From assembly GCA_016209865.1 (NCBI GenBank), contig JACQVL010000323.1, positions 1-7,174 on the forward strand: a DNA stretch of 7,174 nucleotides. Direction: 5' to 3'. The position numbers and the translations under genes were made by a program. A model generated the notes under the pieces. That model did no database searches. It was not told the DNA's origin and saw only the letters and a list, made by a program, of their open reading frames with translations. Positions 2,565 through 7,174 of the stretch are shown here, one piece after another (position 1 is the first letter of the stretch; each line of letters starts with the position of its first letter). The DNA comes from Candidatus Latescibacterota bacterium. GTDB lineage: Bacteria > JAAXHH01 > JACQVL01.

Positions 2565-2684
2565 GTGTACGAGAAGCTCCGGTCGCCCGCCGCTCAAGCG
2601 GCGGGCTGAATAGACCAAGCCCCGTGAACGGGGCTTGGGATAGATGAGCACGCCCATTCATGGACGTGTGGACTTCTCGTACAC
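2565..2684. repeat. 120-bp cloverleaf-forming palindromic element
   Basis: The ends are a perfect 12-bp inverted repeat: GTGTACGAGAAG at 2565-2576 and its complement at 2673-2684. Past a single bulged C (2577) the closing stem continues for 3 more pairs (2578-2580 with 2670-2672). Inside are three hairpins: 2585-2606 (10 pairs, loop CA), 2615-2638 (10 pairs, loop TGAA), and 2649-2668 (8 pairs with one C-A mismatch, loop TC). The two linkers between hairpins both contain ATAGA. Nearly every base is explained by this four-way-junction fold. No ORF of note lies inside. Non-autonomous transposable elements (IS200/IS605-derived, REP/BIME-like, or palindromic MITEs) show this kind of architecture, but a structured RNA or a 3'-end stabiliser of the aminopeptidase mRNA is also possible. 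The structure is directly seen; the mobile origin is inference. Confidence 0.75.
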
Positions 2685-3571: not shown

Positions 3572-3595
3572 AGACAGGGGAAAAGTGGAAAAGAA

Positions 3596-3665
3596 GTATG
3601 GGGGTATGGGCGTATGGGGGAAACAGATCAGAGGCTCTGACTCCCACACTCCCACACTCCCATAC
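3596..3665. repeat. Inverted pair of octamer tandem repeats, large imperfect hairpin
   Basis: The left arm (3596-3620) is three copies of an octamer of the type GTATGGGG plus one G. The right arm (3641-3665) is three copies of CTCCCACA/CTCCCATA plus C. The right arm is the reverse complement of the left at 20 of 25 positions, and two of the five differences would be G-U wobbles in RNA. The 20-base loop ends in a smaller palindrome, TCAGAGGCTCTGA (3628-3640). It could act as a transcript 3' end, although no T-run follows. Confidence 0.7.
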
Positions 3666-3670
3666 GTTTC

Positions 3671-3725
3671 TGCTCCCATTCTCCCACTCCCCCACTCCCC
3701 CACTCATCCATTCTCTCATTCCCCA
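3671..3725. repeat. C-rich degenerate octamer repeat with G-quadruplex potential on the - strand
   Basis: A pyrimidine tract with units such as CCCCCACT and CTCATCCATT at about 8-base spacing. On the - strand, 3675-3701 reads as G-runs of 5, 5, 3 and 3 separated by AGT, AGT and AGAAT, which satisfies the standard quadruplex pattern. It continues the period of the adjacent right arm of the hairpin. Confidence 0.65.
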
Positions 3726-7096: not shown

Positions 7097-7101
7097 AAAG
7101 C

Positions 7102-7142
7102 AGGGGTCAGGGGTCGGGGGTGAGGGGTCAGGAAACAGGGGC
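7102..7142 (+). repeat. G-rich tandem repeat after the receptor gene
   Basis: Degenerate units of the type AGGGGTC repeat at 6-8 base spacing immediately after the stop codon. G-runs at 7103-7106, 7110-7113, 7116-7120 and 7124-7127 with 2-3 base loops satisfy the quadruplex pattern on the + strand. A GACCCC at 7168-7173 near the window edge is complementary to GGGGTC at 7103-7108, so the tail may form part of a larger hairpin that runs out of view. Confidence 0.6.
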
Positions 7143-7174
7143 CAGAAACACACTTGTTCTGATACCAGACCCCC

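Follow-up and report, generated by a model that had tools for sequence, protein, structure and literature searches.

A gene-less inverted dimer of two-hairpin units in a Candidatus Latescibacterota genome, probably a REPIN-like element of a Y1 transposase lineage

Background

Several kinds of hairpin-forming repeats are associated with Y1 transposases. Biochemistry of IS608 and of REP sequences is the source of the model in which hairpins are bound, DNA is cleaved and gene-less copies are mobilised in trans (PMC6006769, PMC8266576). REP-type repeats lie in palindromes in the cases of T. roseum GTAG-23, A. variabilis GTAG-15 and H. neapolitanus CGTC-1 (PMC3733652), and an earlier proposal invokes deletion of the centre between inverted REP dimers (PMC6006769). 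In TIRtrons, a Y1 gene (TIRYT) is located between long inverted repeats, some of them self-complementary, and copies of these terminal inverted repeats (TIRs) are dispersed in the genome, single and paired (PMC3733652); the account of Di Nocera 2013 (PMC3733652) names 'double palindromic' TIRs among them. TnpAY1 transposases of subclass 1.2 (Quentin 2018, PMC6006769), mostly from Cyanobacteria and Bacteroidetes, are published as generally devoid of terminal structures.

The window analysed here is the whole 7,174-nucleotide stretch of contig JACQVL010000323.1 (assembly GCA_016209865.1, Candidatus Latescibacterota bacterium). We propose, with a probability of roughly three in four, that its positions 2581-2673 are a gene-less REPIN/MITE-like element, an inverted dimer of two-hairpin units, belonging to a Y1 lineage that resembles subclass 1.2.

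Results

Structure of the window copy

The 120 bp that contain the element have a minimum-energy structure of -77 kcal/mol, against -44.7 +/- 3.8 kcal/mol for shuffled sequences (z = -8.5), and none of 200 shuffles folded as well. A previous sequence-only reading had described a 12-bp perfect terminal inverted repeat, three more pairs beyond one bulge and three inner hairpins; all of these are present in the minimum-energy structure, where that reading had placed them. ATAGA, to which it had also drawn attention, does occur in both linkers, but other copies do not conserve it (alignment A1). It was consequently rejected as a common signal and is regarded as incidental. The features are as follows.

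Stop codon at 2556: M1 aminopeptidase gene, neighbour of the structure
2565-2576, no strand: left arm of the outer 12-bp inverted repeat, a host hairpin outside the mobile element (fold)
2581-2673, no strand: the element, an inverted dimer of the two-hairpin unit with putatively fused inner hairpins (model R1)
2585-2606, plus strand: hairpin H1 of the left unit, GCCCGCCGCT-CA-AGCGGCGGGC (fold, alignment, R1)
2607-2614, plus strand: linker 1, with ATAGA
2615-2638, no strand: central hairpin CCAAGCCCCGTGAACGGGGCTTGG, common to both units, a putative fusion of H2 and H2' (R1 overlap)
2639-2647, minus strand: linker 2, with ATAGA
2648-2669, minus strand: hairpin H1' of the right unit, GCACGCCCATTCATGGACGTGT (fold, R1)
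2670-2673, no strand: GGAC, the right end of the element (sequences of copies)
2673-2684, no strand: right arm of the outer repeat, which starts at the element end, C2673 being shared
ATG at 2807: thioredoxin/AhpC-like protein gene, neighbour of the structure

The covariance model R1 matches the window at 2581-2638 (plus strand, 74.2 bits) and at 2673-2615 (minus strand, 61.0 bits), both matches covering 2615-2638, the single central hairpin in whose place complete copies elsewhere carry two. Fusion of H2 and H2' by a central deletion would fit this overlap, and the cloverleaf shape of the window copy would be its consequence. At another place (L056, G000:C355:481-577) a unit is overlapped by a weak second unit (E = 0.006), possibly another fused dimer; L099 in genome G061, inspected as a possible second fused pair, was not convincing.

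A dispersed family in the host genome

The sequence-only reading had called for a search for dispersed copies, and the host genome indeed contains about 28 units, diverged in sequence and spread over about 20 places. A genome search with the stretch as a whole gave about 20 partial matches, nearly all to the inner part; the single match in the outer arm is at chance level (E = 0.56). A consensus of 116 bp, derived from the longer copies, gave 27 matches. Model R1, built from 19 half-units of the host genome only (alignment A1), returned 30 rows at E < 1e-3, and these give the number of units stated above after omission of one contig-end duplicate (C43 repeats C290); 19 of the rows are training rows that match by construction. 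Both units are present at 7 of the approximately 20 places. A complete copy has the arrangement H1 - linker - H2 - H2' - linker - H1', in which two units of two hairpins each are paired in inverted orientation between the ends GTCC...GGAC; in the alignment, the left end is commonly GTCC. The position of copies relative to genes varies (upstream, downstream, between), as does their orientation, and 12 of 15 lie outside every ORF call of at least 90 amino acids (the calls being rough).

The stems covary, the covariation being located in H1. Over the 19 half-units, 16 stem pairs hold in 92.6% of the cells, and the paired fraction falls to 24-54% in slid controls. In 14 cells both sides are changed, compared with 4.6 in shuffles, but the count of doubly changed pairs, 4, does not exceed that of shuffles (178/500), so the case for covariation rests on the cells and the score. 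The mean identity of the half-units, 0.72, implies that the family is old. Searches of 15 other genomes of the order yielded no copy of the repeat. A blastn search of phages and plasmids with the element gave no match either, and among viral contigs, for which the H2 pattern and the Y1 protein were used, there was no element and no relative.

A Y1 gene had no match in the window's genome (assembly 83% complete), a Y1 protein search across the phylum found none at E <= 1e-8, and no autonomous copy was found in the own genome, the order or the phylum. The source enzyme was thus lost, was never present in this genome, or is encoded in the 17% that the assembly lacks, and the link to a transposase is drawn by homology to other phyla.

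Units around Y1 genes in other bacteria

The H2 pattern matched seven stretches, from Planctomycetota, Thermomicrobiales and other bacteria. In one of them (L068, Thermomicrobiales), a unit lies about 45 bp ahead of the gene of a 140-aa Y1 transposase (Pfam Y1_Tnp), and an inverted copy follows directly behind it. Five of the six genomes with the H2 pattern yielded Y1 relatives, whose loci have inverted-flank scores of 32-65 (shuffle maximum 14), with the exceptions of L077, which scores 21, and L074, which has no inverted flanks.

Altogether ten loci carry oppositely oriented R1 units on both sides of a Y1 gene, plus before and minus after it. Three of the ten (L070, L071, L075) are in genomes first picked by the H2 DNA pattern. 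The remaining seven (L141, L142, L143, L144, L148, L149, L157) were fetched by protein similarity alone, in a search of 61 genomes from the order of G059, and they belong to the more independent set, on which R1 was run afterwards. L145 and L160 carry arrays of units; at the latter, in a Thermomicrobiales genome (G114), the array spans 752-2084 and has at least seven units, of either orientation, around a Y1 gene. R1 had no match at 12 controls (11 classical IS200 loci and E. coli rayT), nor at two Bacteroidota loci. Inverted-flank scores are 22-66 at most unit-bearing Y1 loci and 6-11 at classical IS200 loci, those of L145, L147, L150, L156 and L160 being near shuffle level (9-17).

Genome G061 contains two Y1 loci with flanking units and 43 unit matches in total, among them inverted pairs lacking a Y1 gene at L088/L094, L098 and L091. 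In G059 there are only two units, those around its Y1 gene; units therefore multiply in certain genomes only. In an Abditibacteriaceae genome (G060), each of several Y1 genes (L072, L076, L078, L079) is flanked by its own inverted two-hairpin repeat, different in sequence.

Since the host family occupies about 20 places, has covarying stems and has relatives that flank Y1 genes elsewhere, the earlier guess of a non-autonomous IS200/IS605-like or palindromic MITE came close; it erred in size and ends.

Relationships of the linked transposases

Two of the linked Y1 proteins score 74.8 and 75.8 with the NCBIfam IS200 model NF033573 (cut-off 55), and 44.4 and 34.9 with the NCBIfam RAYT model (cut-off 80). 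The linked proteins resemble subclass 1.2, an assignment made by motif only. Most of them carry Y---Q--[HR]H: Y---Q--HH is present at L072, L073, L078, L146, L148, L149, L151 and L153, and Y---Q--RH at L070, L071, L075, L076 and L141-L143. A tree of 41 proteins unites the 11 classical IS200 controls in one clade (100/100) and has the inverted-flank loci outside it. On this tree the flank label requires 8 changes, hence it is clustered and not of single origin; the placement of E. coli rayT, L074 and L077, all on long branches, is unsure.

These proteins bear on the alternative that survives best, a classical REP/REPIN family kept by a domesticated RAYT of TnpAREP class 2 whose gene the assembly lacks. 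Inverted dimers dispersed over some 20 mostly intergenic places would suit it, and so would the failure to detect a resident transposase, as REPtrons can be lost (PMC3733652). We nevertheless consider it unlikely: the ends are GTCC, with no GT[AG]G foot, the units are two-hairpin structures of about 55 nt and not one palindrome of 20-40 nt, and the Y1 proteins flanked by matching units fall below the RAYT cut-off and pass that of IS200.

Genomic setting

The element starts 25 bp past the aminopeptidase stop codon, and a promoter follows close behind. A scan of 2500-2850 found a 12/12 consensus promoter, start 2706. This perfect sigma-70 consensus, TTGACA-17-TATAAT, lies within 2704-2734, ahead of the thioredoxin-like gene. 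Its -35 box is overlapped by a near-perfect 21-bp palindrome, TGTTGACAAAGTTTATCAACA (2704-2724), possibly a repressor operator, for which there was no second occurrence among the fetched loci. A TonB-dependent receptor gene is a further neighbour in the window, and intergenic low-complexity tracts are located at 3590-3720 (CTCCCACTCCCC-like) and 7100-7174 (GGGGTCAGGGG-like).

The element may influence the end of the upstream mRNA. Insulation of the two genes, which had been suggested, finds no support, no intrinsic terminator or terminator-like site having been detected within 2500-2850. The same scan weakens the broader idea that the element acts as a structured RNA, a transcript end or an insulator, in which case its stems would be selected as RNA and any mobility would be incidental. 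Such an element could well have a very stable fold and covarying stems and sit between a stop codon and a promoter, but no Rfam family matches at gathering cut-offs, copies occur on all sides of genes in any orientation, units stand inverted on both sides of transposase genes, and covariation is equally expected of DNA hairpins read by a Y1 enzyme. The structured RNA that the sequence-only reading had listed is accordingly disfavoured, and we regard this whole class of explanation as improbable.

The outer repeat

The 120 bp consist of two nested things, an outer repeat of the host and an inner element of about 93 bp. What recurs in the genome is 2581-2673 only, without the outer repeat of 11-12 bp, and the boundaries first drawn, which took the 120 bp as one unit, were wrong. 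A comparable flanking repeat is absent at all 14 other copies tested, where the longest is 7 bp; about 0.07% of random flank pairs attain 11 bp. The right end of the element, GGAC, abuts the right arm of the repeat, and the flanks, when rejoined without the element, form a 12-bp stem. The absence of the repeat from the other 14 copies and the abutting right end indicate that the element, on the evidence of this one copy, probably inserted into a hairpin loop that was there before it. The idea that palindrome loops are targeted in general was rejected, as the window copy is the only one that fits it. Elsewhere in the fetched loci, GTGTACGAGAA has two single occurrences, neither with a hairpin. 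That all 120 bp, outer repeat included, are the mobile unit is highly improbable, for although all parts fold as one continuous structure, no other copy has the outer repeat and insertion of REP-type repeats into palindromes has the precedents cited above (PMC3733652).

Discussion

For the gene-less dimer proposed here, a mechanism can be modelled on the known systems. A Y1 enzyme would bind the end hairpins in single-stranded DNA, during replication, and cut beside the hairpins or foot, and the segment would move as single-stranded DNA; copies without an enzyme gene would be mobilised in trans. Binding, cleavage and mobilisation in trans are all transferred from IS608 and REP biochemistry. 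The window copy would have entered the loop of a pre-existing hairpin behind the aminopeptidase gene and have lost its centre, turning H2 and H2' into one hairpin. An inverted dimer can in this way collapse through a central deletion into a compact cloverleaf that resembles a structured RNA.

The results link an orphan dispersed repeat to a Y1 branch published as generally lacking recognisable ends. More tentatively, with odds slightly short of even, Y1 proteins of subclass 1.2 type may be the transposases of a distinct type of HUH element, which has inverted doubled-hairpin ends, occurs in several phyla and spawns gene-less dimers. H1-H2 units of both strands offer defined substrates for probing the activity of that branch.

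Comparison with known systems

The family shares with REPINs and BIMEs of RAYT short hairpins in inverted dimers, a dispersed and mostly intergenic distribution, related units that flank a Y1 HUH gene, and gene-less copies that outnumber the gene. It differs from them by two hairpins per unit, by GTCC ends in place of the GT[AG]G foot, and by linked Y1 proteins that are IS200-like (Y---Q) and not RAYT-like.

Genome G061, with Y1 loci between long inverted repeats and with dispersed unit matches, displays the arrangement of TIRtrons. Their enzymes, however, are mostly of subclass 2.1 (PMC6006769), and many, not all, published TIRs share GGGGWSAS, which is absent from the units described here, where H2 reads GGGGCTGG and similar (alignment A1).

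With TnpAY1 subclass 1.2 the linked Y1 proteins have in common DHVH, WQ and Y---Q--HH (or --RH). In contrast to what is published for that subclass (PMC6006769), most of the loci found here have long inverted two-hairpin flanks, and they belong to phyla other than Cyanobacteria and Bacteroidetes.

Finally, IS200/IS605 elements (subclass 1.1) and their MITEs are similar in the IS200-family Y1 protein (present in other genomes, not in that of the window), in hairpin ends and in possible gene-less copies. Unlike our loci, ten classical IS200 loci scored without long inverted flanks (at or below shuffles), and classical loci often carry tnpB; the ends of the present family, in place of classical IS200/IS605 ends, are inverted two-hairpin units.
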